From the IMG/VR virus record IMGVR_UViG_3300021960_000462, positions 1 to 25,491 of that record: 25,491 nucleotides of DNA. One strand, written 5' to 3'. The position numbers and the translations under genes are program-made. Positions within the stretch are counted from its first letter, which is position 1; each line of letters begins with the position of its first letter. The notes below the pieces were generated by a model, which was not told where the DNA came from, did not search any database, and was given only the letters and a program-made list of their open reading frames with translations. Below, piece by piece: positions 3,901-18,926 of this stretch. Source of the stretch: a virus.

Positions 3901-4367
3901 TTCAGCAGGGTAATGAAACCAATGTAAGACTTGGTGGTAAAGTGTTCTTCGTTTCTACTGACCAAGGTGGTAACTTCCGAGTTGGTGACTTCTTCTCGGT
4001 TGATCAGTTAACTGGTAGAGCAACCCTGGATGCTTCGGCGTTCAACCTGTCTGGTCTGACTGAACTGAGACTGGGTGCTATTGGTGGTCAGATTGGTGAA
4101 TCGATTAACGAATTCTCCTCTGACGGAACACTGTCGGGTAACTCTAACCAGGCCGTACCCACGGAGCAAGCAGTTAAGACTTATGTTGACACTCTTGCCG
4201 CTGGACTTAATAACACTCTGGTTGCTAGAGCTGGAAGCACCATGACTGGGGCCTTAAAACTTTATGCTGATCCTGGTCCTGGATATGCTGCTAGCATGTA
4301 TGCTGCAACACGTCACTATGTTGACGATCAGGTTGGACCTTCCCAATACTTCTCGGGATCCATTTGA
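906..4367 (+). CDS. Giant tail fibre: seven sugar-binding-like modules plus beta-helix-like body (1153 aa)
   Basis: Start ATG has GGAG at 898-901. Residues ~13-382 hold about seven degenerate repeats of 45-55 residues (near 13-62, 70-117, 128-173, 182-225, 231-274, 284-330, 338-382). The pattern W/Y-x(6-8)-Y-x(3)-D/N-D-x-V-x(3)-G-N-x-Y resembles carbohydrate-binding module 5/12-type beta modules on phage fibres. Residues ~391-428 carry the fibre signature TTRGDLLYR..A.ARL.IGS.GTVL.S.G. From ~437, YVDPVTGNDTETGTSAATAYKTL is typical of the entry to a right-handed beta-helix. The C-terminus has EQAVKTYVD, MTGALKLYADP and AATRHYVDDQV, the usual fibre end motifs. It is probably a receptor-reading side or tail fibre. 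The fibre assignment is strong; the sugar specificity is not knowable from sequence. Confidence 0.85.
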   Translation: MAEFRLGRLKFNWTGNWTPSTAYVIDDIMRFGPNNYVCITNHTSTGIGTTAWASTDSAYWQLHVEGFTFKGAFSTVTTYVVNDVIKLGGNQYICTSNHVSVASTSLWASQNQNQYWRTYNENVTPADEWRPDTYYNVNQLITIGGNVYRCNQAHTGAATTSSWYSTDFSKWTIFNPGLDVVGAYTTSVQYGPNDVIKIGPKQYRVTTPFNASGTVEYGNLSVLADGVEHRGGWIATGIYYPGDLVEFNGNAYINISQSLGNQPNLSASDSFWNPVAVGLGTTAAVGTYSSTRTYNQSDMVTLGGNTYRVISPQVSGINPLGIGSTENWQLVVKGLNFAGTWATATTYELNDIVEYASSAYVSVASSNMSVIPGTNASKWAAFAIGDSTALLTTRGDLLYRNASAPARLGIGSLGTVLTSNGTDVFWDYAGVQTKILYVDPVTGNDTETGTSAATAYKTLGVALTSATGPQSITNLVYNGVTGFATITVPNHGILFNGSRIRLNNIAFSTATLVSQVGFSSNIFPAVNGQQLGGRGGQGGGGFFFDVSNRVDDNTLVVNIGTAPVDLQYVQGGTVTDVSPVIFKLSAGDFFEQLPIRLNPNVSVVGDSLRGTTILPAAGLSTDGVTPNNRKTMFQLSDGCVLQGLSLKGMTGFTYNPNAPFDIGQTNIRVGTGTTACGIFCALNPESPILRKSPYLKDCTSFSHGGVGVFIDGGIHTVGNKSMVFDSFTQINSDGAGYVLDKDARAEIVSCFTYYCSWGYFAGEGARVRSVGGNNSYGDYGVIASGFSTSETPRTASVYGDRFETITGSIVNGPLAVGLAMTGATSGARATILNDQTAGDYIIFKYNAGYGDPSIGIGTTSFIPGETVNIAGGRSAGIASVAGSVGGQKGVLIEVAGLSTTPRVGDNVAFTTTTVAAGINTDNNYYIIAAVTGFTTATGRATLSIAPEKTLRTIDDGTSTSLIQMRTNFSQMRLTGHDFLSVGTGNSVTTNYPNVNDDTVQQGNETNVRLGGKVFFVSTDQGGNFRVGDFFSVDQLTGRATLDASAFNLSGLTELRLGAIGGQIGESINEFSSDGTLSGNSNQAVPTEQAVKTYVDTLAAGLNNTLVARAGSTMTGALKLYADPGPGYAASMYAATRHYVDDQVGPSQYFSGSI

Positions 4368-4410: not shown

Positions 4411-4418
4411 TATAAATA
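4411..4418 (+). promoter_or_regulatory. T4-type late promoter TATAAATA
   Basis: This is an exact match to the T4 late -10 element recognised by the phage sigma factor gp55. It lies in the 86-base gap before the small virion gene. Initiation would be expected near 4424, giving a leader of about 30 bases that carries an AAGGAAAG ribosome-binding site (4439-4446) before the ATG at 4454. It would drive the adhesin cassettes late in infection. Confidence 0.8.
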
Positions 4419-4790: not shown

Positions 4791-5582
4791 ATGCCTATTC
4801 AGTACATTCTTGATTCTAATTGTTGCGAAGTCCACGGAATTTCTTGCTGCTGGATCGTACCTGATGGTGTAAAACACGTCACCTTTGAATTATGGGGCGG
4901 CGGCGGCGGTGGAGGAAACGCTGGTACTAACTGTAACTGCTGTCAATCTGGCGGCCCAGGTATGGGAGGTGCATACGCTAGAAAATCTATTAACGTAACT
5001 CCTGGAGATTACTACTACGTTTGTGCTGGATCTGGCGGCATGACCTACCAGGAGGGTGAATTTACTGGTGCTCCTGTAAATCTTTGCTGTAATGGAATTA
5101 GCGGTGGAAACAGTTTTGTAATTGGAGTCGGACTTACTAATTTCTGTGCAGAGGGTGGTTGTGGAGGCCGAAGTGATTTCGGTATTAATTGCTATTCTTA
5201 CTGTGGATGTATGTTTTATTCTAGTGGCACTCCTGGAATAAGCGCAACTTCATATGGGTATGATTACCATGCTCATAGCAATGGTGGACTCATGCACTTA
5301 TATGCTGATGGTGGAAACCCCTACACAATTAAGAATTGGGGTGGCACTGGAGCAGGCCCTGGCGGCGGCGGAGCAGGACATAATCACTCCGGATCGTATA
5401 ACTGCTGGGGTGGAAAAATGGGTGACAACAGTTGGGGCAAATATGTTGGTTTCCCTGAACCAATGATGCATGGTAGAATTCCTGGTGGCGGTGGAGCTGG
5501 CCAACACTTCCAAAGTGGTTGCAATTGCAACCCAGGTAGAAGTGGCCCAGGCGCTCCCGGAATGGTTAAAATTACATACTGA
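4791..5582 (+). CDS. Glycine/cysteine-rich adhesin, cassette copy 1 (263 aa)
   Basis: The core motif is W21-x-V-P-x-G, then TFELWG and seven consecutive glycines (36-42). A GGxYA..I.V.PGDYYYVCAGSGG segment follows, and the end is PGGGGAGQ...PGMVKITY. This pattern is the glycine-rich domain found at tips of many phage fibres. T-even gp38 adhesins also use glycine-rich motifs to form a polyglycine receptor-binding tip. I count 18 cysteines, often as CC or CxC, which is very unusual for a fibre protein. The central part differs from the two sister copies, as expected of a receptor-binding region. A chaperone-like partner follows 8 bases downstream. Adhesin function is inferred from family resemblance. 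Confidence 0.75.
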   Translation: MPIQYILDSNCCEVHGISCCWIVPDGVKHVTFELWGGGGGGGNAGTNCNCCQSGGPGMGGAYARKSINVTPGDYYYVCAGSGGMTYQEGEFTGAPVNLCCNGISGGNSFVIGVGLTNFCAEGGCGGRSDFGINCYSYCGCMFYSSGTPGISATSYGYDYHAHSNGGLMHLYADGGNPYTIKNWGGTGAGPGGGGAGHNHSGSYNCWGGKMGDNSWGKYVGFPEPMMHGRIPGGGGAGQHFQSGCNCNPGRSGPGAPGMVKITY

Positions 5583-5590
5583 GAAAGACA

Positions 5591-6172
5591 ATGGCAGACT
5601 ATAAAGTATTAGTAAATACATCTACTGGTAGAATCGGTCCCTATCCCATTGTCAGTGCTGGTAATGAGAGTCCAGCGCCCAGTGGATATCAGTATGTAAC
5701 TCTTGAAGAAGATACACCAGTATATGATGTTCTTCTTGCAATTGAAGGTAAACTTCATTTTGATATTGATATCTGGAAATCCACTTATGATTTTGATAAT
5801 CAGCAGTGGAATTATGCTCAGAAACAATGTGAAATTACTTGGAATGATGTAATCACTAATAGAAACGCTCTTCTTGATCAAAGTGATTACGCTTATTCCG
5901 CTGCAATTTATCATGATGTGGAATATGCACAGAAAATGTGGAGAGATTACAGAGCTCATCTGAGAATCTTATTTGATAATGTAGACTTTGAAAATGATAA
6001 TCCTTGTGATTTTGAATTCCCTGAGGGACCATTTGAAATCGAAGCAATGTCTGAATACATTCAGGCTGGAAATGCCAACATGAGAGTCATTGCCGACTCT
6101 AAAGTTAGAAGAGGTGATGTTTGGTACACGGAGATGTATCAACGTCTTGGTATCAGCACAACAGGAGTATAG
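5591..6172 (+). CDS. Tail-fibre assembly chaperone-like protein, cassette copy 1 (193 aa)
   Basis: Residues ~70-125 read like phage tail assembly chaperone proteins (the Phage_tail_APC/Tfa type): W..V..NRNALLDQSDY, then about 16 residues, then MWRDYRAHLR. The N-terminal ~60 residues (DYKVLVNTSTGRIGPYPI...YQYVTLEEDTPVYD) would be the fibre-interacting part. It has no signal peptide and is acidic and aromatic. It sits between adhesin copies 1 and 2, as Tfa or gp38-type helpers follow the fibre they fold. The role as a dedicated folding or attachment partner of the upstream adhesin is inferred from order and the short motif. Confidence 0.6.
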   Translation: MADYKVLVNTSTGRIGPYPIVSAGNESPAPSGYQYVTLEEDTPVYDVLLAIEGKLHFDIDIWKSTYDFDNQQWNYAQKQCEITWNDVITNRNALLDQSDYAYSAAIYHDVEYAQKMWRDYRAHLRILFDNVDFENDNPCDFEFPEGPFEIEAMSEYIQAGNANMRVIADSKVRRGDVWYTEMYQRLGISTTGV

Positions 6173-6178
6173 TAAACA

Positions 6179-7024
6179 ATGGGAAGACATTCAACAAAAG
6201 GATACGACTGTAATCTAGCATGTACAGGAGTTTTTTGGTTATCTCCTGAGGATGGTGACAGAACTACAGCTACAGGTACTGGATCCGTTAATAGATGCTG
6301 TCTTTGGACAGTTCCTCAAGGTGTTTACTGTGCTACCTTTGAAGTATGGGGTGGTGGTGGACAAGGAAATAACAAGTGCTGCTGTTCTTGTTATCCTGGT
6401 ATTGGCGGATCTCCTGGTGGATATGCAGCCAAGACAATTAAGGTTCAACCCGGATGGCAATATACCCTCTGTGCAGGTGGTGGTGGCTGGGACGCTTGCT
6501 GGAATGCGAACCAAGTTAGCGCATGTCAGTGTAGAGGTTGTGGAAGCTTCGTTAAAGGATGTAACTTAGGATTTGATTGCAACAACCAACGTGCTGAGAG
6601 TGACGTTTACAAGGGTGGAAAACTTTACGCTGACGGCGGCCTCGGCGGCAGTTGGTGTAATGACTGCTCTCAATATGGATCTTGCACTGGTGGTTGGTGG
6701 AGAAGCACTGAGAAGTGTGGATGTTCCTTTGGTGGAGATATTAACTTAAGTGGTGGATGGGCAGAAGTACATACCTGTTTTGAGAACTGCATCTTAACTG
6801 GTGGTTTTGGAGCTCCCATGGGAGGTCCTGATCAGTGGCAAGGCAGAGTGTGCTGCTGCTATCAATGCGGTCAAGGCCGTGGCGCTGGTGATCAATCTTG
6901 CGGATGCTGTGGAACTTTCCCTGGTGGTGGCGGTGGAGTCAATCCTATGGCAGGGGCTGATCATTGCGATGGTTGTGCTTGCTCTGGTAAGGGCGGCAAT
7001 GGTCTTATTAGAATTACATACTGA
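6179..7024 (+). CDS. Glycine/cysteine-rich adhesin, cassette copy 2 (281 aa, 33 Cys)
   Basis: This is a paralogue of the genes at 4791 and 7631. It shares the W43-T-V-P-x-G / TFEVWGGGG core (residues 43-61), the GGYAAKTIKV.PG..YTLCAGGGG block and the PGGGGG...GLIRITY end. It is the most extreme in cysteine: about 33 in 281 residues, including CCCSC, ACQCRGC, RVCCCYQC and SCGCC. An extra N-terminal segment (residues 1-38) is not shared with copy 1. AGGAG occurs before the ATG. It is probably an alternative or additional receptor-binding tip. The cysteines could form disulfides or bind metal; the sequence does not decide. Confidence 0.75.
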   Translation: MGRHSTKGYDCNLACTGVFWLSPEDGDRTTATGTGSVNRCCLWTVPQGVYCATFEVWGGGGQGNNKCCCSCYPGIGGSPGGYAAKTIKVQPGWQYTLCAGGGGWDACWNANQVSACQCRGCGSFVKGCNLGFDCNNQRAESDVYKGGKLYADGGLGGSWCNDCSQYGSCTGGWWRSTEKCGCSFGGDINLSGGWAEVHTCFENCILTGGFGAPMGGPDQWQGRVCCCYQCGQGRGAGDQSCGCCGTFPGGGGGVNPMAGADHCDGCACSGKGGNGLIRITY

Positions 7025-7032
7025 GGAGAAAA

Positions 7033-7638
7033 ATGGCAACAACAAAGTATTGGGCACTTGTTTATAGAAAAACCCACCTTGATGAAGGTTATTTCTTCCG
7101 CAAGGTCGCTAATGTTGTTCCCACCTCAGAAAAGTGGGAAGCAGATCAATTAGCAACGTGGGTTGAAGTCACTGGCGATTTGAAAACAGCCATGACTGAT
7201 CCTTCTGACACTAGAATCGTCGATGATCAGAGAACTAGATATAGTTTTGAATCGCAAACTTGGGATGCATTTTTTGTTAAACCAAGTATTGTAGAAAAAA
7301 CTCCGTCAGATCCCCAACAATCCGCATTGGAGATCGCCCTCTCTAATAGAGAAACTTTATTAAAAGAAGCAGCAATTCGTAAAAAAGTAAGAGATATTAC
7401 TCCTGGATTTGCTGCAGCTATTGATGCATATGTTGCGGAACTAAATAATCTTGAGATTGTAAAGGGTAAAACCTTCGATCTTGTTTGGCCCATTCAACCA
7501 TGGTCCACCAGCGTCACTTCAAACAGTGAGGCAAAAATCGCTGGAGAAGCAGGAATGTTTTCAAAATATTATGCACAAACAGAATTTGCTCCTGGTGTAA
7601 CACCTAGATTTAGCTCCGAGGGATACGTTAATGGCTAG
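7033..7638 (+). CDS. Tail-fibre assembly chaperone-like protein, cassette copy 2 (201 aa)
   Basis: It follows adhesin copy 2 by 8 bases with GAGGAG before the ATG. It is weakly related to the partners at 5591 and 8405. It keeps the ALSNRETLLKEAAIRKKVRD segment (~115-135) that matches NRNALLDQSDY in copy 1 and ETLLEEARRIRDEQLDASDY in copy 3, but the WR.YR..LR motif has degraded to IDAYVAELNNLE. The N-terminus starts YWALVYRKTHLDEGYFF, a beta-like fibre-binding half. Its last 8 bases overlap the start of adhesin copy 3, suggesting translational coupling. Chaperone function is inferred from position and residual similarity. Confidence 0.55.
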   Translation: MATTKYWALVYRKTHLDEGYFFRKVANVVPTSEKWEADQLATWVEVTGDLKTAMTDPSDTRIVDDQRTRYSFESQTWDAFFVKPSIVEKTPSDPQQSALEIALSNRETLLKEAAIRKKVRDITPGFAAAIDAYVAELNNLEIVKGKTFDLVWPIQPWSTSVTSNSEAKIAGEAGMFSKYYAQTEFAPGVTPRFSSEGYVNG

Positions 7639-8395
7639 AAATTTATATTCTGCATCTACCTATCAAGACGCTTGCGGCAGGTGTATTGATGATAATGACA
7701 AGACGGGATGTCAGATTCGTTGTGTCCGCATGGTTGATTTCTGCGAAGCAGGAAACTACACCTGGACTGTTCCCACTGGCGTAACCAGAGTTACTTTTGA
7801 AGCCTGGGGTGGCGGTGGTGGAGGATCTGCTCGCTGCTGCTGCGATTGCTATCACCATGGTCACGGCGGATCTGGTGGTGGATACAGTGCTGTTTCTGTT
7901 GCTACTGTTGCTGGTTGTCAGTATACGGTTTGCGTAGGACGTGGTGGTAACGAAGACGTAACTGGTAAGTTAGGTCGCCACTGGTGCTGCTGGGGTAAAG
8001 ACGGTGGAACTTCTTATGTGACTGGATATAACCTTTCTTCTTTCTGTGCAACCGGTGGCGGTGGTGCAGACATGGCTGGAAACGGTTGCTATAGTCACTG
8101 TGGTTGCATGTCTAACCAAGCTGGTTGTGGATCTGGTGGAAATATCTATGGCAATGGTGCTACTGGAGGACAGACAGGATACTCTGATGCCCAGTACTAT
8201 TCGATTGGTTGGGCTGGCGGTGCTGCATTCACTGCTGGAACTAAGTGGTTCTCTCATGAGCATTGCTGCCAGTGTCGTCCTGGCGATCCTGGTGCTCTTC
8301 CTGGTGGCGGTGGAGATGGTCCTCGCAACTACAATTGCTGCTGCTATCAAGCTGGTAACGGCGGTACTGGTCTCGTTCGCATTAGATTTGAATAA
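7631..8395 (+). CDS. Glycine/cysteine-rich adhesin, cassette copy 3 (254 aa)
   Basis: This is the third paralogue. Core W45-T-V-P-x-G / TFEAWGGGGGG (residues 45-65) is followed by ARCCCDCYHHGHGGSGGGY, YTVCVGRGG, and a PGGGGDG...GTGLVRIRFE end. There are about 24 cysteines plus a His cluster (CYHHGHG, HEHCCQC) that gives Cys/His patterns suggestive of metal binding. The N-terminal region (DACGRCIDDNDKTGCQIRC) is unique to this copy. The start overlaps the preceding gene by 8 bases. AAGGAG follows its stop for the next gene. It is probably a receptor-binding tip protein. Confidence 0.75.
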   Translation: MARNLYSASTYQDACGRCIDDNDKTGCQIRCVRMVDFCEAGNYTWTVPTGVTRVTFEAWGGGGGGSARCCCDCYHHGHGGSGGGYSAVSVATVAGCQYTVCVGRGGNEDVTGKLGRHWCCWGKDGGTSYVTGYNLSSFCATGGGGADMAGNGCYSHCGCMSNQAGCGSGGNIYGNGATGGQTGYSDAQYYSIGWAGGAAFTAGTKWFSHEHCCQCRPGDPGALPGGGGDGPRNYNCCCYQAGNGGTGLVRIRFE

Positions 8396-8404
8396 AGGAG
8401 AACA

Positions 8405-8917
8405 ATGGCAAAGTTTGGTTTAATGCTGCAGGAAGCAAACGGTTATTGCTTCAACACCTGGGCATATAGAGAACATGAAGAACCCCCTGCAGAGGCAGTG
8501 CCCGAGGGAGTAAGATTTGTTTGGATCACTGATGAGCATCCTCAGTGGGAACAGGCTTATGCTATTTTTGTAGATGATCCTACCGAAGGAGAGACTCCTT
8601 GGGCAGAGTATTATGGACCCTCTACAAATGGTGGTCCTCAATATGATTTCACTCTTGGAACTTTTACTTTCCCCAAGATTGATAGAGGAGAAACTCTTCT
8701 TGAGGAAGCTCGTAGAATTCGTGATGAGCAGTTAGATGCAAGCGATTACTTCATGCTTCTCGATGATGTTCCCGACTCCATTATGAATGCAGTTATTGCT
8801 TGGAGACAAGAACTTAGAGACATGCCTAACAAGGTAATTAGTGGTGAGTGGACACACAGCAGAGACCTTATTTTTTCTGCTCCTCCCTCTGGTCTCTTTA
8901 ATCACGTTAAACTCTGA
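8405..8917 (+). CDS. Tail-fibre assembly chaperone-like protein, cassette copy 3 (170 aa)
   Basis: It has a strong AAGGAG ribosome-binding site 9 bases after adhesin copy 3. Residues ~90-145 carry the clearest assembly-chaperone pattern of the three partners: ETLLEEARRIRDEQLDASDY, about 16 residues, then IAWRQELRDMPNKV. This matches the R..LL..sDw...W..YRq.LR..p consensus of Phage_tail_APC-type proteins. The N-terminal half (KFGLMLQEANGYCFNTW) is presumed to recognise the adhesin. The gene ends at the TGA at 8915-8917, directly against the stop of the minus-strand fibre gene, with no terminator between. Confidence 0.65.
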   Translation: MAKFGLMLQEANGYCFNTWAYREHEEPPAEAVPEGVRFVWITDEHPQWEQAYAIFVDDPTEGETPWAEYYGPSTNGGPQYDFTLGTFTFPKIDRGETLLEEARRIRDEQLDASDYFMLLDDVPDSIMNAVIAWRQELRDMPNKVISGEWTHSRDLIFSAPPSGLFNHVKL

Positions 8918-10705
8918 TCAAAGAGCACCAAAGAAGAACGCAACAGCCGCACTCTCTGCAGCCTCGTTTTTAACGTACTGCACAGAGGCGGCTCTTTGAG
9001 TATCTGCTGCTCCGACACGAATGTCTGGTGTGTCTGCGGTTAATCTAACTTCCTGATTAAATGTAGCAACACCAGTTACCGACAGACCGTCATCGAGAGT
9101 TGCAATTTTGGTTGCATGGAATGGACCTGTAAGATCAGCAGCATAGTTTTGTGTTGCTAATCTTGCGGTGTAGTTTTGTCCGTAGAATGTAGAGATACCA
9201 TTTGTGGATAGTCTCTCAGCATGAATCAAACCACTCTGTAAGGTAACACCAGTACCAACAAATACAGTCGATACTGTACTGACGCCGGAGAGGTTCAGAG
9301 ACACCGCTGTAAGACTTGTCTCGTCCATTCTGCTGGTGCCTACCTCTAAGCGGGTAGAGTGCAGCGTTGACGTGCCTCCTACGCTTATCCTAGAGTCATG
9401 TCCACCATTGAGGGTAATACTTTGTGTACCAATGGTTAAAATTCCAGTGATTCTAGCATCACCAACAACAATTAGTGCAGTATTTACACCAATGCGATTT
9501 CCGATACCACTAATTTGTGCTATAATATCGGAAGATCCTTCATAAGTTCCTTGACGTGGTATCAGGAGAGACGTTCCAATAGAGTGTCCTGATCCACCAT
9601 TCAGAATAGTTACCGTTGCAGATCCATCCGCAAGAATATCTACGGAGAATGATGCTCCAGTTCCACCAGCTCCTGCAAGTGGATGACCTGCAATCGCAAA
9701 TACTCCAGTGTTTCTTCCAGACTGAGGATTAATACCAGAGACATTTGTCAATCCAGTAATAACGCCAACACCTTGTACAACTGTAGCAATGCCAAGTGCT
9801 CCACCAATTTGTAAGTTAGATACTGTAGAGACACCAGTTGTTGTTGAGATATTGCCAGAGATATTACCAAAGACATTACCAAAGAAACCAAAACCATCGG
9901 ATCCAATACCAAGAGCCGAGATGTTCGTGTTCAGATAAAGGGAGTCATCACCAACACCTGCAAAGTCTTTGTCTGCTGGTACTGATAAGGACAGGAAGTT
10001 TACATCCTGAATGGATGATTTGACACAAAGAGTCTGACCAGAACGAAGGAAAATGTCATCAAAGATTTCTGCTTCATTCGATGCAATACCTTTTGCGTAG
10101 GTAATATAATCAGAATCAAGAAGTTCTTCTACAGTTCCAGAAGAAATACCAATCGTGATTCGAGCATCCTTTGATTGGTTTGCGTTGGAAACATAAAGAG
10201 TTGTTTTTGTTGGGTTAGTCGCTGTTAGAATTGGAAGATTTCTATTGATGTTCTGGGTTGTGATTCCAGTCTTGATAGCAGTTCCTTTTCCAAAGAGAGT
10301 TGCAACAGCGTCTCTATATTCGATAGCACCAGTAGCCAGGAAACTTACATCTGGTTTGGTACATGAAATAAAGACACTATCTCCACTACGGATACCAACA
10401 TTAGAAATTCTGAGAGATTCTAGTGCATCAATTCTTACACCAGTCAGAAGTTTATCTGAATCTCCAACAATAAGTTCTGTTCTTATACCAACACCGTTAT
10501 TTCTTTCTACAAAGATTGTACCGACGCCAACGGTTACGTTCGCAGGATCGGAGCCCTGGTTCACGATATCGATGTTTACACCTGTAAGATTGCCATCTGA
10601 TGTGTAGAGAATGGCGTTGGTGTTAACACCCAGATTTCGTGTGGTCTTGAGCGAATTTAACTTTCCAATTCTCGATGCCACGCTGATTCCTCTGACAGAG
10701 CCCAC
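8918..10705 (-). CDS. Fibre-like structural protein on the minus strand (595 aa)
   Basis: Composition and repeats are those of a cyanophage long-fibre protein: Gly/Ser/Thr/Val/Ile-rich throughout, with repeats such as GNVFGNISGNIS, TTTGVSTVSNLQIGGA, SVDILADGSATVTILNGGSG and DDGLSVTGVATFNQEV. The C-terminus is ADTQRAASVQYVKNEAAESAA, which resembles the trimer-like ends of fibres. The frame is closed by an in-frame TAA just upstream, so the start is the GTG at 10705 or a later codon; no internal Met lies near. No ribosome-binding site is visible. It is the only minus-strand gene here and ends head-to-head with the adhesin block with zero spacing. Confidence 0.75.
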   Translation of the reverse strand: MGSVRGISVASRIGKLNSLKTTRNLGVNTNAILYTSDGNLTGVNIDIVNQGSDPANVTVGVGTIFVERNNGVGIRTELIVGDSDKLLTGVRIDALESLRISNVGIRSGDSVFISCTKPDVSFLATGAIEYRDAVATLFGKGTAIKTGITTQNINRNLPILTATNPTKTTLYVSNANQSKDARITIGISSGTVEELLDSDYITYAKGIASNEAEIFDDIFLRSGQTLCVKSSIQDVNFLSLSVPADKDFAGVGDDSLYLNTNISALGIGSDGFGFFGNVFGNISGNISTTTGVSTVSNLQIGGALGIATVVQGVGVITGLTNVSGINPQSGRNTGVFAIAGHPLAGAGGTGASFSVDILADGSATVTILNGGSGHSIGTSLLIPRQGTYEGSSDIIAQISGIGNRIGVNTALIVVGDARITGILTIGTQSITLNGGHDSRISVGGTSTLHSTRLEVGTSRMDETSLTAVSLNLSGVSTVSTVFVGTGVTLQSGLIHAERLSTNGISTFYGQNYTARLATQNYAADLTGPFHATKIATLDDGLSVTGVATFNQEVRLTADTPDIRVGAADTQRAASVQYVKNEAAESAAVAFFFGAL

Positions 10706-10756: not shown

Positions 10757-11590
10757 ATGATTATTCTGACTGGACATAAAGGTTTTATTGGATCCCATTT
10801 ATTAGATTCTTTGAAAGCACAGCATAAAGAAGTTGTGTGCGTTGAGAAAGAAGAGGTATTAACTTTCTTTGACCAATTTAAAATTTGGGATAGAGTAACT
10901 AAGATCATCCACATGGGTGCAAACTCTAGCACCGTGGGTAAAGATCTGAGAGATTACTACGTTTACAATATTGACTTCACTCTTCGTTTGTTTGAGAAGG
11001 CAATCGAATATCAAATCCCAGTCAAGTATGCATCCTCGGCCTCTGTGTATGGTATGAATGGGCATGATTCATACAATCCTTTGAACTATTACGCCTTGAG
11101 TAAGTTGACTATTGACTACTATGTCATGGACAACCTAGATAAGTTCAAAGAAATTCAGGGATACAGATTCTTTAATGTGTATGGAACTGGTGAGGACAAG
11201 AAAATTCTTGCCAATCAGTCCAGCCCTATCAGTAAGTTTATCAAACAGATTGAAGAACAAGGATACATTGAACTGTTTGAAGGATCAGATGAGTTTCTGA
11301 GAGACTTTGTTTGGGTTGGTGATTGTGTTGACATTGTTCTTTATGAGGATGTTCCCTCTGGAATCTATGATGTTGGCACATCCAAACCAGTATCATTCCA
11401 GTATGTTGCTGAAAAAGTAGTTGAAGTATACGGTGGAGAGATTAAATACATTCCTTTTCCTGAGCATTTGATTGGAAAGTATCAGAACTTTACTTGTGCA
11501 AAAGAGGATTTCCCTGGTTATAATTACATTTCCGTGGCAGAATATCTGAACCCTGAGGATGGACTTGTGCATACCTCGGAAGGGTGTTAG
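10757..11590 (+). CDS. HldD-like NAD(P)-dependent sugar-nucleotide epimerase (277 aa)
   Basis: This is an extended short-chain dehydrogenase. It has a Rossmann GHKGFIG motif (6-12), GANSST (55-59), YASSASVYG (91-99), the catalytic YxxxK (Y112, K116) and RFFNVYG (137-143). The second half closely resembles ADP-L-glycero-D-manno-heptose 6-epimerase: LFEGSDEFLRDFVWVGD (173-189) and YIPFPEHLIGKYQNFT (231-246). It is ~30 residues shorter than bacterial HldD, mainly between residues 30 and 50. Family knowledge predicts epimerisation of a nucleotide-activated heptose or similar sugar in the cytoplasm. It heads an operon with a GT9-like protein, which fits heptose chemistry. The exact substrate is an inference. 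Confidence 0.85.
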   Translation: MIILTGHKGFIGSHLLDSLKAQHKEVVCVEKEEVLTFFDQFKIWDRVTKIIHMGANSSTVGKDLRDYYVYNIDFTLRLFEKAIEYQIPVKYASSASVYGMNGHDSYNPLNYYALSKLTIDYYVMDNLDKFKEIQGYRFFNVYGTGEDKKILANQSSPISKFIKQIEEQGYIELFEGSDEFLRDFVWVGDCVDIVLYEDVPSGIYDVGTSKPVSFQYVAEKVVEVYGGEIKYIPFPEHLIGKYQNFTCAKEDFPGYNYISVAEYLNPEDGLVHTSEGC

Positions 11591-11638
11591 AATAGGACTA
11601 CATAGTACAGATATTATTCTTTATCATCTTTATCGATA

Positions 11639-12595
11639 ATGACAGCATCTAAAAAATCTTCCCCCAAGGGAAAGATTGCCTTTACCAATGGCGGACTTGG
11701 CCGAATGCTGAGTGCAATTCGCCCACTGGAAAGATTTGTTCAAGCAAATCCAGAGAATAGGGTTATGACAAACTCTAGTCTCGATTTTGTTTGGGGAAAT
11801 AAAATTCTTCAACCAAAGTCATATCATTCTGAGATGAAGAACATCTTCAATGATATAATTAAAGATAGAGAATGGATTGAGGCAGAACCATATACCGATT
11901 GGGAATATTACAATCAGAAGATTAGTATTGGTCAAGCGTTTGATAAACATTGGAATGGAAAGTACTCGGATAATCCAGAAGACTATCGTCCAAACATTTA
12001 TTTGACCGAAGAAGAACTGGCATATGGTAGAGCAATTATCAATGCGGCTGAGAAGGAGCATGGTAATGAAAAGACCATCATCATTCAACCGTTTGGTAGA
12101 GGGGCTAGTAAAGAGGAAGAACTTGAAACTGTAATTGATAAAACTTCTAGAAGTTTTAGTTTTGAATTTTATCTAGAACTTGTCAAACAACTCAGATCGG
12201 AGTATAATGTGGTGTGCATGTCGGAGTTTAAGGCTCCGAATGATTTACTCACTATTTGTCCAAAGGATGTTGAGATCCGCCATTGGTTTGGTGCAATTTC
12301 TCAGTGCGATTACTTTATTGGTTGTGACAGTCTAGGACAACATGCGGCATACGCATTCAACACTCCTGGTAGTGTGATTATTGGAAGCACGTTCCCCGTG
12401 AATATTTCATATCCACATTACTTTAATACGATTACAAAGAAAGACTTTGTACCTCAGTTTGATACTTTCCGTTTGAGTGGATTCGGATCTCATGAGGCCT
12501 CATACTACAATTCTGGTTGTATGATGTTTGATGAACAGGAAACTGAGGAAATTATTGAAAACATTATCAAAGACATTGAGGAAAAGACTAAATGA
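11639..12595 (+). CDS. Glycosyltransferase family 9 / heptosyltransferase-like protein (318 aa)
   Basis: The C-terminal half carries CDYFIGCDSLGQHAAYAF (223-240) followed by GSVIIGST, the nucleotide-sugar-binding hallmark of GT9 enzymes such as LPS heptosyltransferases (DYFIGPDSG..H.A.A...P...LFG). The N-terminus has the glycine-rich FTNGGLGRMLSAIRPLERF loop expected of a GT-B fold. It lies 48 bases after the HldD-like epimerase and overlaps the carbamoyltransferase by 4 bases (ATGA). No signal peptide. It probably transfers a heptose-like sugar made with the epimerase product. The acceptor could be host surface glycan, virion protein or DNA. The start has only a weak upstream ribosome-binding site. 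Confidence 0.6.
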   Translation: MTASKKSSPKGKIAFTNGGLGRMLSAIRPLERFVQANPENRVMTNSSLDFVWGNKILQPKSYHSEMKNIFNDIIKDREWIEAEPYTDWEYYNQKISIGQAFDKHWNGKYSDNPEDYRPNIYLTEEELAYGRAIINAAEKEHGNEKTIIIQPFGRGASKEEELETVIDKTSRSFSFEFYLELVKQLRSEYNVVCMSEFKAPNDLLTICPKDVEIRHWFGAISQCDYFIGCDSLGQHAAYAFNTPGSVIIGSTFPVNISYPHYFNTITKKDFVPQFDTFRLSGFGSHEASYYNSGCMMFDEQETEEIIENIIKDIEEKTK

Positions 12596-14346
12596 GCGTT
12601 TGGATTGGTGCTGTAACTCGTGGTCATAATGGAGCCGCTTGTTTACTTAAGGATGGAGAACTAGTTTTTTATCTTGAAGAAGAGAGACTGAGTAGGAAGA
12701 AGTATGATGGTGGTCCCATGGCTGGACTGCTGAAGATGAAAGAGTTTACTGATAAACTCGATTGTCTTGTTGTAGCACATACTGATTCTTTAGATAAAGC
12801 AGGTAAAATTGATTTCTCTGGTGATGATTATGTCACTGCTCTGGCCAGAAAGATTGGTTTAATTGACCGTTATGCTCCCAGTAGACCTCATCCTCAAGTT
12901 GTTGATCTTGGTATGATTCACCATGAGATGCACGCTTCTTGTGCTTTCTATAACTCTGGTTTTGAATCTGCTGCATGTTTGATTGTTGATGGCGCAGGAA
13001 CTTTTGTTCCTCTTGGTGAAGATAGTATTGGTTGGGAACTAGAAACTATTTTCCAAGCATCCTATCCTGGAAAGTTTATTACAAAATACAAGCACATTGG
13101 TGTTCGTGGACCTGTAACAACCTTTGAGAAACTTCAGGTTCCTCACGCTCATCGTGGTCGTGGTGAAGATGAAGGACTGCATGATGTGATCTTCACTGAT
13201 CACCCAGGTATTACAAAAACCTATGAAGCGATGACCGATTATCTCGGATTCTCCTTCATTGAGGCTGGTAAGGCGATGGGTCTTGCTCCTTATGGTAAAC
13301 CTAATCCTGAGATTCCTCCCATCTTTATGGGACCTGAGGGACGTAGGTTCAGTAATAGGAATCTTTTCGTCCCTAACTATCCTAATGGCGCATACGTTGA
13401 CAAAACCATCTTCCCATACCTGGATACAGATAGTCTTGAAGTTCAAAAAGATTTTGCTTATGCTGTTCAAGAGGCAACTTCAGATGAGATGATTCGTCTG
13501 ATTCATAAAGCGATTGAATTGACTGGTGAAAAGAACATTGTTATCGCTGGTGGATATGGTTTGAACTGTGTTGCAAACTATAAGTATCGTGAACATCTCC
13601 CCGAAGGTGTAAATCTATACTGTGAGGCCATCGCTCACGATGGTGGAACTTGTATTGGTGCAGCAAAATACGTTTGGCATGAATCAGAAAAAGACATGAC
13701 GATTAGAAAGAACGAATCACTTTATCTTGGTCCTCAACCTTCCTACGATAATATTAAACTTAAAGAAGGTGAGGAAGTTAGAGATGTAACTCCTGAAGAG
13801 GTCATTGATATCATTCAGGAGCAAAACATCGTTGCTCTTTATCAAGGTCGATCTGAGGCTGGTCCTCGTGCTCTTGGTAATAGAAGTCTTCTCTTTGATC
13901 CTACTGTTAAGGATGGAAAAGATCAGGTGAATACTATCAAGAAGCGTGAATGGTTCCGTCCTTTTGCTGGTACAATTATGGCCGAGCACGTTCATGATTG
14001 GTTTGATCTTCGTGGAATGGATGATACTCCTTTCATGATGTATGCCGTTAATGCTGCTTCTGAGGAGAAAGCGGAACAGATTCCTAGCATCATGCACGTT
14101 GATAAGACTTGTAGAATTCAAACTGTTACTGAAGAGCAGAATGCAAATTACTACAATCTGATCAAGGTATTCTATGAGAGAACTGGTGTACCTATTCTGT
14201 TCAATACTTCTTTCAACCTTGGTGGTGAACCTCTTGTTGAGACCGTAGAGGATGCTCTGTGGACGCTTAGAAACTCTGGTATCAATTATCTGTATCTTGC
14301 AGATCTTGGAAAACTGGTAACCATTATGTCAAATGACAGAGCATAA
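12592..14346 (+). CDS. NodU/TobZ-family O-carbamoyltransferase, two-domain (584 aa)
   Basis: This is a full-length member. The N-terminal Kae1-like domain has GHNGAACLL (11-19), the metal-binding HHEMHA (110-115), IVDGAG (131-136), and AGGYGLNCVANY near 318-330. The C-terminal YrdC-like domain has GRSEAGPRALGNRSLLFDP (419-437) and REWFRPFAGTI. In TobZ the C-terminal domain makes carbamoyl-adenylate from carbamoyl phosphate and ATP, and the Kae1-like domain transfers the carbamoyl to a hydroxyl. Family members act on sugars and antibiotics, and a virome-derived member has been reported to act on 5-hydroxymethylcytosine in DNA. It overlaps both neighbours (4 and 14 bases), implying coupled translation. 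The acceptor here is unknown. Confidence 0.9.
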   Translation: MSVWIGAVTRGHNGAACLLKDGELVFYLEEERLSRKKYDGGPMAGLLKMKEFTDKLDCLVVAHTDSLDKAGKIDFSGDDYVTALARKIGLIDRYAPSRPHPQVVDLGMIHHEMHASCAFYNSGFESAACLIVDGAGTFVPLGEDSIGWELETIFQASYPGKFITKYKHIGVRGPVTTFEKLQVPHAHRGRGEDEGLHDVIFTDHPGITKTYEAMTDYLGFSFIEAGKAMGLAPYGKPNPEIPPIFMGPEGRRFSNRNLFVPNYPNGAYVDKTIFPYLDTDSLEVQKDFAYAVQEATSDEMIRLIHKAIELTGEKNIVIAGGYGLNCVANYKYREHLPEGVNLYCEAIAHDGGTCIGAAKYVWHESEKDMTIRKNESLYLGPQPSYDNIKLKEGEEVRDVTPEEVIDIIQEQNIVALYQGRSEAGPRALGNRSLLFDPTVKDGKDQVNTIKKREWFRPFAGTIMAEHVHDWFDLRGMDDTPFMMYAVNAASEEKAEQIPSIMHVDKTCRIQTVTEEQNANYYNLIKVFYERTGVPILFNTSFNLGGEPLVETVEDALWTLRNSGINYLYLADLGKLVTIMSNDRA

Positions 14347-15400
14347 GACAGTATGGGGAGTCAATCTTACTCATGATGCTGGCGTTTGCCAAGTGACTGA
14401 TGGTAAGATTGACTGGTTTCTCTCGGAAGAAAGAGCAAGTAGGTACAAGCATGATATTGATCCTACTTTTGTTCTAGATTACTTGGAAGAGCACACCAGA
14501 GTTGATAAATGGGTCATTACTGGATTGTTGCATAAAACTTGGGAACCCGAATACATTCATGAATGGGCTCTTGAGTTTGATTATAAAGTAGCAAAGTGGT
14601 ATAAGAAACTTTATGGAATAAAAAACGATCACATTAATAGAATTATATCTACAGAGCACCATATTTTTCATGCTGCTTGTGGGTATTATAATTCTGGTTT
14701 TGATGAAGCAGTTGTTGTGGTTGCTGATGGAATGGGAAATCCATTAAAGTATGACGACGACGAACCAACTTGTCATGAAGTTGAAAGTGTATATCATGTA
14801 AAGAACGGAAATTTTGAATGCGTTTGGAAAAATGTTACACCAACTTTTATTGATTGTGATCGTCCATATCCAAAGTGTGATTGGATTAATCAAAATGCAG
14901 AGATTGGCATTGGAATGGTTTACTCTGCTATGTCAGTTTATCTTGGATTTGGTGAACTTGGATCTGGAATTCTTATGGGGTTGGCTGCCTATGGTAAACC
15001 AGATCCAAACATAAAACCGTTCTTACTTCATCCCTCAGTAATTGATCAAGACCTTTTTCATAGAGTTCAGTACGGTGCAAAGTTTATACCCTATGAGTAT
15101 GTAAAATTTGAGGGTGAAGTAGATGATATGACACCAGATCATCCAAAGTTTCAACCTCTCGCCAATCTTGCCTGGAGATTGCAATTAGATTTTGAGATTT
15201 ACATGACCCATCTTCTGAAAACCGCATCAATTCAAACTGGATGTAAAAACATTGTATTGTCTGGTGGTTGTGCATTGAACTGTGTAGCCAACTATGAATA
15301 CCTTAAACACCTTCCAGACGATGTAAAACTATATGTTGAACCAGTCAGTGATGATTCTGGCATTCCTATCGGTGCCGCATATATGGGGCATGAATTATGA
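14333..15400 (+). CDS. Carbamoyltransferase paralogue with only the Kae1-like domain (355 aa)
   Basis: It aligns with the N-terminal ~60% of the upstream enzyme: LTHDAGVC near 12-19, HHIFHA (109-114), VVADGMGN, MGLAAYGKPDPN and SGGCALNCVANYEY near 309-323. It stops at IPIGAAYMGHEL, the point where the longer protein continues into its activating domain. The GRSEAGPRALG region is entirely absent and no remnant follows, because the next gene starts inside the last codons (ATGA). The catalytic metal ligands are retained. It may use carbamoyl-adenylate made by the full-length neighbour, form a hetero-complex with it, or be non-carbamoylating. The 14-base overlap with the upstream gene supports co-expression. 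Confidence 0.8.
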   Translation: MTEHKTVWGVNLTHDAGVCQVTDGKIDWFLSEERASRYKHDIDPTFVLDYLEEHTRVDKWVITGLLHKTWEPEYIHEWALEFDYKVAKWYKKLYGIKNDHINRIISTEHHIFHAACGYYNSGFDEAVVVVADGMGNPLKYDDDEPTCHEVESVYHVKNGNFECVWKNVTPTFIDCDRPYPKCDWINQNAEIGIGMVYSAMSVYLGFGELGSGILMGLAAYGKPDPNIKPFLLHPSVIDQDLFHRVQYGAKFIPYEYVKFEGEVDDMTPDHPKFQPLANLAWRLQLDFEIYMTHLLKTASIQTGCKNIVLSGGCALNCVANYEYLKHLPDDVKLYVEPVSDDSGIPIGAAYMGHEL

Positions 15401-16116
15401 GTAAAACTGAATACTGGAGAGGAGCAGAACCAAAGACTCCCTTTGCACCATCATTTTTAATTCAACACTATACCGCAAAACATGGAAGTGAAGACTTCAA
15501 AAAAAGACTCATTGAGTATTGCTTGAAGTGTGAGAAAATGCTTGAGGATGAAGAGTTGGTTTCTGAAGTAATTAAAAATACTGAAGATCCATATGCATTC
15601 ACTCAACATTGGAAACAACATAATTTGTTGGACGATAGTGGAGATAGACTAGACGGCAATCATCTCAAGAGATTCCCAGAAGATAAAGTTCAGACGGAAT
15701 TTTTTGAGATGATTCGTGAACACTATCTGAGATTTTTATCTGATCTTGGATATCAACGTCGCAAAGTTTACATTCATACTTGGGCTAATTGTTTAAGGTC
15801 TGGGCAATTTGTAAACAGGCACTGTCATGTGTCTGGACCAAATTCATACTTAGCATGTACATATTATCCACAGGCATCTAATACCAGTCTTTATCTCTTG
15901 AATCCATTCGATGAAGGTGAGGCAGTTGCATTTCCAACAATATCTGGTGGAATTGTTATGTGGCCTAGTTGGGTATATCACAGAACAAATACTACAAATC
16001 ATGATCTAAGAGTAAGTGTTGCTAGTGACATTGTAACCGAAGAAACAATGATTGCTAATCCTTGGAGACCACATATTCTTTTAGATGATCCTGCTACCAT
16101 GCCAGGATTGTACTGA
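15397..16116 (+). CDS. 2OG-Fe(II) oxygenase-like protein (239 aa)
   Basis: The C-terminal ~110 residues fit the phage and bacterial 2OG-FeII_Oxy_5-type pattern. NRHCHVSGPNSYLACTYYP contains H142 and H144 (iron side). A strand follows with GGIVMWPSWVYHRT containing distal H195, then LRVSVASD with R205 placed to bind 2-oxoglutarate. Residues 1-110 are helical and highly charged with no recognised domain. Such enzymes hydroxylate protein side chains, sugars or nucleobases using Fe(II), O2 and 2-oxoglutarate. It is translationally coupled (ATGA) to the short carbamoyltransferase, so it may create the hydroxyl that is then carbamoylated or glycosylated. That order of reactions is inference. Confidence 0.7.
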   Translation: MSKTEYWRGAEPKTPFAPSFLIQHYTAKHGSEDFKKRLIEYCLKCEKMLEDEELVSEVIKNTEDPYAFTQHWKQHNLLDDSGDRLDGNHLKRFPEDKVQTEFFEMIREHYLRFLSDLGYQRRKVYIHTWANCLRSGQFVNRHCHVSGPNSYLACTYYPQASNTSLYLLNPFDEGEAVAFPTISGGIVMWPSWVYHRTNTTNHDLRVSVASDIVTEETMIANPWRPHILLDDPATMPGLY

Positions 16117-17629: not shown

Positions 17630-17636
17630 GGGTTCT

Positions 17637-18236
17637 ATGAAGACAGATTACTCCATTGACCGAATCTCCAAAGAGGAAGCAAAGGGTCTGCTTCTTCAGT
17701 ATCACTATTTGAAGGATTTATCCAAGGACTTCAAATCTGGGTTCAATTATGGACTTTTTAAGGATACTGATTGGGATTGTCCTCTCAGAATAGGTGGGTG
17801 TCTTGGCACTTGCATATTTACAGGTCTCCCTGTACCAGAAATAGCAAAAGGAGCGTTTGGACTTGAACGACATGAACAACAAGGATTATTCGAACTTTCA
17901 AGACTTTGCATCGAACCTATTACGCAGTCACGAGAATATAACATCACTTCTTGGTTTGTGTCAAAAGCGATTAGACAACTTCGGAAAGATACTGAAGTTA
18001 AAGCAATCATTTCTTATGCTGATTCAGATTACCATTCTGGTACAATTTATAGAGCTTGCAACTTTAAGTACTGCGGTCTTACGGATCGAAAAAAAGATTT
18101 CTACTATGCAGACGGAACTAAACACTCTCGTGGAAAAATCAAAGGAATAGAAGGAGAGTGGCGTGATCGTTCTAGAAAACATAGATACGTTATGATCTTC
18201 GACAAAAAACTTGAATTAAAATGGAAGACAGTTTAA
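17637..18236 (+). CDS. Mom-like DNA adenine-modification protein (199 aa)
   Basis: The sequence resembles the GNAT-fold Mom family of phage Mu, which adds a carbamoylmethyl group to N6 of adenine and protects DNA from restriction. Recognisable parts are the N-terminal EEAKGLLLQYHYLKDL, a central FELSRLCIEP strand, SWFVSKAIRQLRKD, and the family-typical IISYADSDYHSGTIYRACNF followed by YCGLTDRKKDFYYADG. The C-terminus is basic (RDRSRKHRY). An in-frame ATG at 17628 overlaps the -10 box, so 17637 is preferred. It is placed directly under an early-type promoter, which suits an anti-restriction enzyme. Family assignment is from motif memory; chemistry in this phage is inferred. Confidence 0.7.
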   Translation: MKTDYSIDRISKEEAKGLLLQYHYLKDLSKDFKSGFNYGLFKDTDWDCPLRIGGCLGTCIFTGLPVPEIAKGAFGLERHEQQGLFELSRLCIEPITQSREYNITSWFVSKAIRQLRKDTEVKAIISYADSDYHSGTIYRACNFKYCGLTDRKKDFYYADGTKHSRGKIKGIEGEWRDRSRKHRYVMIFDKKLELKWKTV

Positions 18237-18379
18237 AAATCATACAAAAAGAAGATGGATCTTTTGAGATGGACTGGGATCCACAAGACCCAAAATGGTC
18301 TTGGATGAACGGCTTGACATCAGAGCAGGTTAGTCTTATAATGCAGGAAGCAATCAAGGATTACCTCGATGACCATTGA
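18221..18379 (+). CDS. Microprotein with W-x-W and acidic motifs (52 aa)
   Basis: The ORF starts at an ATG overlapping the last 16 bases of the Mom-like gene and ends 11 bases into the next gene. The product is MEDSLKIIQKEDGSFEMDWD, then a PQDPKWSWMNGLT turn and an amphipathic acidic helix (SEQVSLIMQEAIKDYLDDH). This organisation, a short beta/acidic segment plus WDP.DP.W..lNG and a terminal helix, recurs in small cyanophage proteins of unknown function. The two-sided overlap and lack of any other gene in the 132-base space between its neighbours support it as real. No function can be assigned. Confidence 0.65.
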   Translation: MEDSLKIIQKEDGSFEMDWDPQDPKWSWMNGLTSEQVSLIMQEAIKDYLDDH

Positions 18380-18695
18380 AGGCCGCCCAGTGTTGAGTGA
18401 TTTTTGTTACAAGAAATATACTCTGGAACATCTTGAAAATTGGGTTTTAGATGCCCTCAGTTGTGATGATATTACTCATAAAGAAGTCTATGAGACAATC
18501 GTAACGGCTGTAAGTGATAATGTTAAGCATCACAGGAAAGAGTTGGATAAAAGCGTTGATCTCCTGTATCTTCTAAAAGGTCATCGTGACATTGAGATTG
18601 GTGTGGGGAATGATGAACCGTTTGATTCCTGTGATAGGGATGATACATCTAAAAAGTGCAAACAGCAGTGGGATGAATTTTGGGAGGCTCTTTGA
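18369..18695 (+). CDS. Hypothetical helical acidic protein (108 aa)
   Basis: It begins at an ATG overlapping the previous microgene and ends one codon before the GTG of the next. It is predicted mainly helical (TLEHLENWVLDALSCDD, ETIVTAVSDNVKHHRKELDK) with an acidic C-terminus (DSCDRDDTSKKCKQQWDEFW). Four cysteines are spread through the protein without a zinc-binding spacing I recognise. No signal peptide. Small overlapping genes like this, under a host-type promoter, are typical of the early region of T4-like cyanophages where host-takeover proteins are encoded. Function unknown. Confidence 0.65.
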   Translation: MTIEGRPVLSDFCYKKYTLEHLENWVLDALSCDDITHKEVYETIVTAVSDNVKHHRKELDKSVDLLYLLKGHRDIEIGVGNDEPFDSCDRDDTSKKCKQQWDEFWEAL

Positions 18696-18926
18696 GTGTA
18701 TACGCTTCAACTTCTTGCTCCATTCATCGCTGGATTATGCTTTGATAATTTTGTAAGCAAGCAAGGAGAATTGTGTAATTTTAGAGATTCGCAAGTACCT
18801 GTCATAAAATATGACACGCAAAGTTCTGAAAAGTCATGTTATAAAGATGGAATCTTTTATACACGTTGTAAAGACACAGAAAATCCCGAAGTCCTTCATT
18901 ACCACAATCTTCTGAAAGCCCAATGA
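18696..18926 (+). CDS. Small hypothetical protein with hydrophobic N-terminus, GTG start (76 aa)
   Basis: GTG start directly after the TGA of the previous gene, with GGGAGG at 18682-18687 eight bases upstream. Residues 1-16 (MYTLQLLAPFIAGLCF) are hydrophobic and could be a signal anchor or uncleaved export signal; no good positive n-region is present. The remainder is polar with three further cysteines (GELCNF, EKSCYK, YTRCKD), so disulfides outside the cytoplasm are possible. Its last four bases (ATGA) overlap the start of the next, clearly exported, protein. No family recognised. Confidence 0.6.
   Translation: MYTLQLLAPFIAGLCFDNFVSKQGELCNFRDSQVPVIKYDTQSSEKSCYKDGIFYTRCKDTENPEVLHYHNLLKAQ

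Follow-up and report, generated by a model that had tools for sequence, protein, structure and literature searches.

Known Heptosylation and S-Glycosylation Systems and a Phage Cassette

Heptosylation of an adhesin is carried out by TibC, which uses ADP-heptose to modify Ser of the TibA adhesin, with Asp110 as the catalytic base (PMC4358343). Sugars are attached to the sulfur of Cys by the glycocin S-glycosyltransferases (sublancin, glycocin F, and pallidocin), which place Glc or GlcNAc on one or a few Cys of small bacteriocins (PMC6405829, PMC9877059). Phage-encoded glycosyltransferases that modify virion proteins have been described for mycobacteriophages (Freeman et al. 2023, as related in PMC11256854), and in that account the substrates are capsid or tail proteins of other phages. 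In large cyanophages, lipopolysaccharide (LPS)-type genes, clusters 304, 305, 307, and 308 among them, are repeatedly found together; Sullivan et al. 2010 (PMC3037559) left undecided whether these genes function or are stuffer DNA. Here we analyzed a five-gene cassette (positions 10757-16116) on the IMG/VR virus record IMGVR_UViG_3300021960_000462; the window is the entire 25,491-base record, and our statements about this phage are limited to that fragment of its genome. The cassette encodes an HldD-like epimerase, a glycosyltransferase (GT), two carbamoyltransferases (CT1 and CT2), and a 2-oxoglutarate (2OG)-Fe(II) oxygenase, and it lies downstream of a tail-fibre block.

As in the TibC/Aah systems (bacterial autotransporter heptosyltransferases, BAHT), in which the adhesin is modified at many sites, a dedicated GT is encoded with an adhesin and relatives encode a pathway for the ADP-heptose donor; heptosylation of the adhesin by the phage GT is proposed here from genomic association. 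Attachment to the Cys sulfur, which is also proposed here, would be shared with the glycocin S-glycosyltransferases, whereas those enzymes have a different fold and the phage fibres offer tens to more than 100 Cys. We know of no link between mycobacteriophage virion glycosylation and Cys-rich adhesins, heptose genes, or a carbamoyltransferase. To our knowledge, adhesin heptosylation, virion glycosylation, and S-glycosylation are each known, whereas their combination, the Cys-rich substrates, and the exchange of the catalytic Asp for a basic residue are not. A search of the open-access literature found no paper on Cys-rich or S-glycosylated phage fibres or on the pairing of such a GT with Cys, which is weak evidence of novelty given that scope, and no virion glycan data for these phages were found in the literature.

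We give about an even chance to the proposal, taken as a whole, that marine phages coat their host-binding fibres with carbamoylated heptose-type sugars on tens to more than 100 Cys per chain, via a TibC-fold S-glycosyltransferase with a basic residue where the catalytic Asp would be expected. That the virion fibre is the target can be held with high confidence. Modification of virion proteins was one of three targets offered by the first-pass annotation of this DNA and is now strongly supported, with Cys-rich adhesins adjacent to the cassette and the GT co-occurring with Cys-rich fibres across unrelated phages. Cys is probably the acceptor, and glycosylation of the fibre on Cys is, judging from sequences and predicted models, the outcome that we moderately favor. 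In the proposed mechanism, the HldD-like epimerase would set the configuration of the donor; fuller relatives also bring a HAD phosphatase and the two HldE functions, kinase and adenylyltransferase. The TibC/WaaC-fold GT (GT-B, GT9) would attach an ADP-heptose-type sugar to Cys side chains of the upstream adhesins. CT1 would make carbamoyl-adenylate and carbamoylate the sugar, CT2 would use the carbamoyl-adenylate of CT1 on a second position or acceptor, and the 2OG enzyme would hydroxylate the sugar or the adhesin. Fibre tips thickly coated in this way with small, neutral carbamoylated sugars may be altered in receptor binding, stability, or recognition.

Association of the Glycosyltransferase with Cysteine-Rich Fibres

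Upstream of the cassette, the window encodes three Cys-rich adhesins that had been overlooked: adhesin A, with a Gly_rich_2 domain (4791-5582, + strand, 6.8% Cys), and the Gly-rich adhesins B (6179-7024, + strand, 11.7% Cys, 33 of 281 aa) and C (7631-8395, + strand, 9.4% Cys). All three are proposed substrates, and the model of adhesin C matches the cyanophage Pam3 fibre 7ypx and the Bxb1 tail tip. This pairing recurs widely. Open reading frames (ORFs) in the sequence flanking the GT were counted as Cys-rich when they had at least 7% Cys and at least 10 Cys, and at least one was present in the available flank of 72 of the 91 GT loci. Most of these ORFs (126 of 137) were upstream of the GT and shared its strand; four loci with an inverted fibre block account for the remaining 11. 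After the GTs had been collapsed into clusters at 70% identity and counted where at least 5 kb of upstream sequence was available, a Cys-dense ORF was found in 34 of 37 clusters. As controls, 80 loci surrounding the neck gene in marine T4-like phages (705 ORFs in 926 kb) were examined, and neither a Cys-dense ORF nor the GT occurred in any of them. A reverse search from the adhesin, confirmed against the Cys-rich query and covering Cys-rich adhesins only, found the GT in 67 of 76 loci, the rest being short or truncated contigs. In the whole genomes of D505, HJ05, SBP1, and HTVC112P, no gene is denser in Cys than the fibre gene that directly adjoins the GT gene. Locus L048 seemed to be an exception, but two adhesins, containing 45 and 46 Cys, are encoded about 11 kb away from its GT.

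The fibres concerned have unrelated architectures, which include Gly_rich_2 adhesins, long fibres (500-1400 residues, one chain in L046 having as many as 148 Cys), alanine-rich, coiled-coil-like fibres in the Vibrio phages D505 and SBP1, and 17-residue solenoid repeats beside the GT in L066, L085, and HTVC112P. Cys averages 9.8% in the Cys-rich fibres versus 0.88% in other ORFs (11.1-fold), whereas Ser, Thr, and Asn are unenriched (1.12-, 0.91-, and 0.97-fold). Because the GT tracks cysteines across fibre folds, Cys as its acceptor is the simplest account.

Cysteine content also follows the presence of the GT within one adhesin family. Gly_rich_2 proteins beside the GT in cyanophages have 8.0-11.6% Cys, whereas a Gly_rich_2 protein encoded elsewhere in the P-SSM2 genome has 0.4%. 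Genome-wide, the GT was not found in HTVC008M, S-SSM5, S-RIM44, or S-SCSM1, and their Gly_rich_2 proteins have 0, 0.5, 0.4-1.2 (three adhesins), and 1.9% Cys, respectively. In the 17-residue solenoids of phages with the GT, 183 repeats contain 130 Cys, 127 of which occupy registers 1, 7, 8, 11, 12, and 17; the GT-free CRP-1, CRP-7, and Venkman have no Cys at those six registers in 65 repeats. These registers are mostly variable positions, an exposure-type pattern, and are probably exposed. In the overall proposal that we put at about even odds, the enzyme would serve more than a single fibre fold, and any fibre it serves would have gained Cys at exposed positions. The solenoid fibres at L066:3-5726 and L085:2-5080, with Cys at specific registers, are a convenient model for locating modified residues.

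Fold and Active Site of the Glycosyltransferase

The window GT (11639-12595, + strand, 318 aa) belongs to phrog_8954, which has no known function, and gave no Pfam match; for the GT9 family PF01075, the P-SSM2 GT reached 15.4 bits versus a gathering score of 22. When PDB chains were searched by sequence with the GT alignment, no true match emerged; matches came from the fold search alone. The predicted model (pLDDT 93.8, built from a 51-sequence alignment) has a GT-B fold of the WaaC/WaaF type, and its best PDB matches in Foldseek were TibC (4rap and 4rb4; E 1.8e-10 for 4rap). With VIA-align, 272 residues were aligned with TibC 4rap (Z 20.6, rmsd 3.0); the GT9 protein 3tov gave an equal Z of 20.6, and WaaC/WaaF-type folds gave 17.1-18.9 (1psw 18.9, 2h1f 17.5). 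The donor-binding motif D-[TS]-x3-H of the C-terminal domain is retained: D230, S231, and H235 are invariant in the 51 sequences, and D230-S-x3-H235 aligns with D261...H266 of WaaC.

The phage GT differs from TibC in that the N-terminal beta-barrel (about 97 residues) is missing, the first strand of its catalytic fold beginning at residue 11, and so is the four-Cys iron finger (Cys339/342/358/370), no Cys being invariant in the alignment; it therefore falls outside the BAHT family, although its mode of action may be similar. It differs from WaaC and WaaF, whose acceptor is the LPS core, at the catalytic Asp. WaaC Asp13, equivalent to TibC Asp110, aligns with Arg22 of the phage GT, in a nearly invariant GG-x-G-R22 that has Lys in HTVC112P, and the loop pattern common to WaaC (MGDVLHTLPAL) and the phage GT family (GGAGRVLCSIPAL) supports this placement. 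The correspondence comes from the WaaC alignment only, since the N-terminus was wrongly placed when the GT was aligned with WaaF by hhalign. If this weak alignment holds, the phage GT would lack the catalytic base for a hydroxyl acceptor, as would be fitting for an enzyme that acts on a thiol.

The main competing explanation, which we consider unlikely, is that the GT glycosylates the adhesins on Ser, Thr, or Asn, while Cys form disulfides or bind metal and are simply a companion feature of this adhesin type. It draws on the fact that the closest fold, TibC, is a Ser O-heptosyltransferase (PMC4358343), and on the high conservation of Cys in the adhesins, some positions (C71, C101, C139, C159, and C212) being nearly invariant. 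However, Cys, and not Ser, Thr, or Asn, is what the diverse GT-linked fibres have in common, and disulfide formation is opposed by odd Cys counts in 162 of 322 Cys-rich adhesin chains, by CC doublets, and by the placement of Cys at variable registers without rung pairing. Same-register Cys on adjacent solenoid rungs, which disulfide ladders would pair, were no commoner than expected (P 0.24 and 0.75). The assembly of phage fibres in the reducing cytoplasm also counts against disulfides.

Sugar Supply and Conservation of the Cassette

The epimerase (10757-11590, + strand, 277 aa) matches the heptose epimerase model TIGR02197 with 182 bits, below the equivalog cut-off of 274.6, and keeps S116, Y140, K144, and K178 (alignment numbering shifted by 5), which we take to be the catalytic residues of E. 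coli HldD. The constant core of the cassette among marine phages is the GT together with a carbamoyltransferase, and the five-gene set is a local form. The carbamoyltransferase is the immediate next gene in 75 of the 93 GT loci that have a following gene, so the arrangement is not due to chance. In P-SSM2, S-SSM7, S-CAM1, S-CAM3, and Sf-FS3, the GT and CT1 come after the tail-fibre block, together with T4-GC 304, 305, 306, 307, and 308; P-SSM2 and S-SSM7 are cultivated isolates. The long tail fibre of the window (906-4367, + strand, 1153 aa), which belongs to the block preceding the cassette, has homologues in the same position in S-SSM7, P-SSM2, and S-CAM1.

T4-GC 304 is an HldE adenylyltransferase domain (TIGR02199, 106 bits) and T4-GC 305 an HldE kinase domain (TIGR02198, 148 bits); T4-GC 306 is annotated as phosphoheptose isomerase, yet matches HAD phosphatases (TIGR01689), T4-GC 307 is a cupin, and T4-GC 308 is an HldD-like epimerase. 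The scores fall short of the equivalog cut-offs. By sequence, the set resembles the enzymes of ADP-heptose synthesis, minus the isomerase. Two public gene names look wrong at L002:18024-18368 and 18349-18705, where a "phosphoheptose isomerase" matches HAD phosphatases and a "cysteine dioxygenase" is a generic cupin. An ADP-heptose-type donor appears most likely because the GT fold, the HldD-like epimerase, and the HldE domains of relatives all point there, and we regard a heptose-type donor as fairly likely.

S-SSM7 and Sf-FS3 have a short CT2 and 2OG oxygenases inside the cluster, and thus all five functions of the window together, whereas the distant relatives L014-L016 retain only GT, CT1, and 2OG. 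Independent scattering of the genes, which the first-pass annotation had named as grounds for abandoning a joint pathway, was not seen, as GT and carbamoyltransferase form a conserved pair. Its view of the five genes as a unit stands in part: the functions recur clustered, but their exact order is not a unit, and the epimerase lies elsewhere or is absent in relatives. Vibrio, Aeromonas, and small Pelagibacter phages have the GT and a Cys-rich fibre, with no carbamoyltransferase match or sugar pathway in the examined region; Vibrio and Aeromonas hosts could supply an ADP-heptose-type donor. An Aeromonas GT used as the query against viral contigs gave no matches.

Remodeling of the host surface polysaccharide, e.g., as a block to superinfection, is the usual reading of such genes, given the LPS-type genes of cyanophages (PMC3037559) and pelagimyophages (PMC7029224), the latter with phage glycosyltransferases assigned to change of the host O-chain. 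We consider it improbable here, and the earlier suggestion to this effect is weakened, since the cassette lies within the fibre block in different genera, the GT and a Cys-rich fibre are kept together in phages without an adjoining sugar pathway or carbamoyltransferase, and the Cys-rich fibres would be left unexplained. As far as we know, the LPS of marine Synechococcus is reported to lack heptose, which also counts against it.

Carbamoyltransferases and the 2OG Oxygenase

CT1 (12592-14346, + strand, 584 aa) has the full two-domain architecture of the NodU/CmcH/TobZ family, i.e., a Kae1-like Carbam_trans_N (PF02543, 68 bits) and a YrdC-like Carbam_trans_C (PF16861, 194 bits), and, by these matches, has the two domains that carbamoyl formation and transfer require. 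Its relatives of known function, TobZ and GdmN, are O-carbamoyltransferases. The window departs from that family in using the enzyme beside a fibre GT and in having a second copy with the transfer domain alone: CT2 (14333-15400, + strand, 355 aa) matches only PF02543, with the HxxxH and C-terminal Asp metal-site motifs kept, and because it is without a YrdC-like domain, it would depend on CT1 for carbamoyl-adenylate. Split carbamoyltransferases do exist, since S-RIM44 and S-SCSM1 encode the N and C domains as separate genes (domain order from gene lengths and annotation). Neighboring genes for carbamoyltransferase pieces occur at L021:8462-10083 (S-RIM44) and L023:6603-10185 (S-SCSM1), both GT-free, with four in S-SCSM1 followed by an epimerase. 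In the LPS core of P. aeruginosa, the carbamoyl group sits on heptose. A figure legend in PMC7168646 marks 7-O-carbamoylation of that core. For the phage glycan, a carbamoylated sugar is somewhat likely. The pyrimidine synthesis role to which a carbamoyltransferase was assigned in a cyanophage paper (PMC9146016) is unsupported by the domain evidence for this enzyme. The 2OG-Fe(II) oxygenase (15397-16116, + strand, 239 aa) matches 2OG-FeII_Oxy_5 with 32.7 bits and may act on the sugar or on the adhesin.

HypF carbamoylates the C-terminal Cys of HypE, and CT2 has weak similarity to HypF_C_2 (E 0.0017); together with the position of the carbamoyltransferase directly after the GT, this could suggest that the cysteines are carbamoylated directly and that the GT has a separate job. 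Such a scheme is very improbable in light of the O-carbamoyltransferase activity of the CT1 relatives and of the Vibrio, Aeromonas, and small Pelagibacter phages, which keep the GT and a Cys-rich fibre with no carbamoyltransferase match found. Least probable of all is carbamoylation or glycosylation of hydroxymethylated bases in phage DNA, raised earlier partly on account of a nearby Mom-like gene, which is indeed present (17634-18236, + strand, Pfam Mom 84 bits, phrog_1384) but, among the loci annotated, occurs only in near-identical phages (L011-L013): there is no link to replication genes, PF00303 (the dCMP-hydroxymethylase family) is absent from the complete genomes of S-SSM7, P-SSM2, S-CAM1, Sf-FS3, and S-CAM3, all with GT and carbamoyltransferase, and neither the fibre linkage nor the Cys would be explained.

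Points That Weigh against the Proposed S-Glycosylation of the Fibres

Several observations count against glycosylation of fibre Cys by the phage GT with a carbamoylated heptose. Three GT clusters (L083, L086, and L087) have no Cys-dense ORF in the available flank, and Pelagibacter fibres are only mildly Cys-enriched (1.5-1.9%). The exposure of the solenoid registers was deduced from how variable their residues are rather than from a structure. No residue of the adhesins is better conserved than Cys, so that an expectation that modified Cys evolve freely proved wrong; such conservation fits functional sites and fits a structural or metal-binding role as well, and by itself does not separate modification from structure. 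The sequence alignment of the GT with WaaC is weak, and the placement of Asp13 on Arg22 has low confidence by sequence alone. No HldE homologue was found in the window and close relatives (fragments of 30-73 kb), and heptose supply for the window phage is thus inferred from fuller relatives. In S-SSM5 and HTVC008M, carbamoyltransferases are encoded in other contexts where the GT is absent, and CT1 and CT2 therefore need not act on the fibre glycan.

Layout of the Window

The first-pass description of five consecutive genes was borne out, with five + strand ORFs spanning the cassette; a 48-nt gap follows the epimerase, and the remaining four genes overlap at each of their three junctions (by 4, 14, and 4 nt), in agreement with the overlapping junctions it had described. 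Directly after each Cys-rich adhesin comes a separate small protein, an arrangement like that of fibre chaperones: the one paired with adhesin A (5591-6172, + strand) may be Tfa/chaperone-like, as its position suggests, and the partners of adhesins B and C are encoded at 7033-7638 (+ strand) and 8405-8917 (+ strand), respectively. Between the fibre block and the cassette, a 595-aa protein encoded at 8918-10705 (- strand) has no family match and is probably a fibre. L013 is a near-identical record of the window phage with several frame breaks in the fibre and GT genes, which are likely sequencing errors.

The T4-type late promoter motif TATAAATA and its near matches occur in the window at chance frequency (32 versus 30 expected), and therefore no promoter is claimed; a single perfect site lies at 4411-4418 (+ strand), just 5' of the adhesin block. 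The Cys-rich fibres, which may carry further modifications, also show a 1.57-fold enrichment of Trp, and a tryptophan-halogenase homologue recurs near the GT cassette (L001:17164-18651; also L047, L048, L061, L085, L094, and L099).

Implications for Marine Phages

The evidence gives the LPS-type genes of these phages one testable job, i.e., building a sugar and attaching it to the virion's own receptor-binding fibres. If Cys is indeed the acceptor, we know of no protein S-glycosylation that would be as extensive, and the GT would represent a new enzyme class useful for protein chemistry. It would also offer a reason why host recognition by abundant marine phages may not be predictable from the sequence of the fibre alone.

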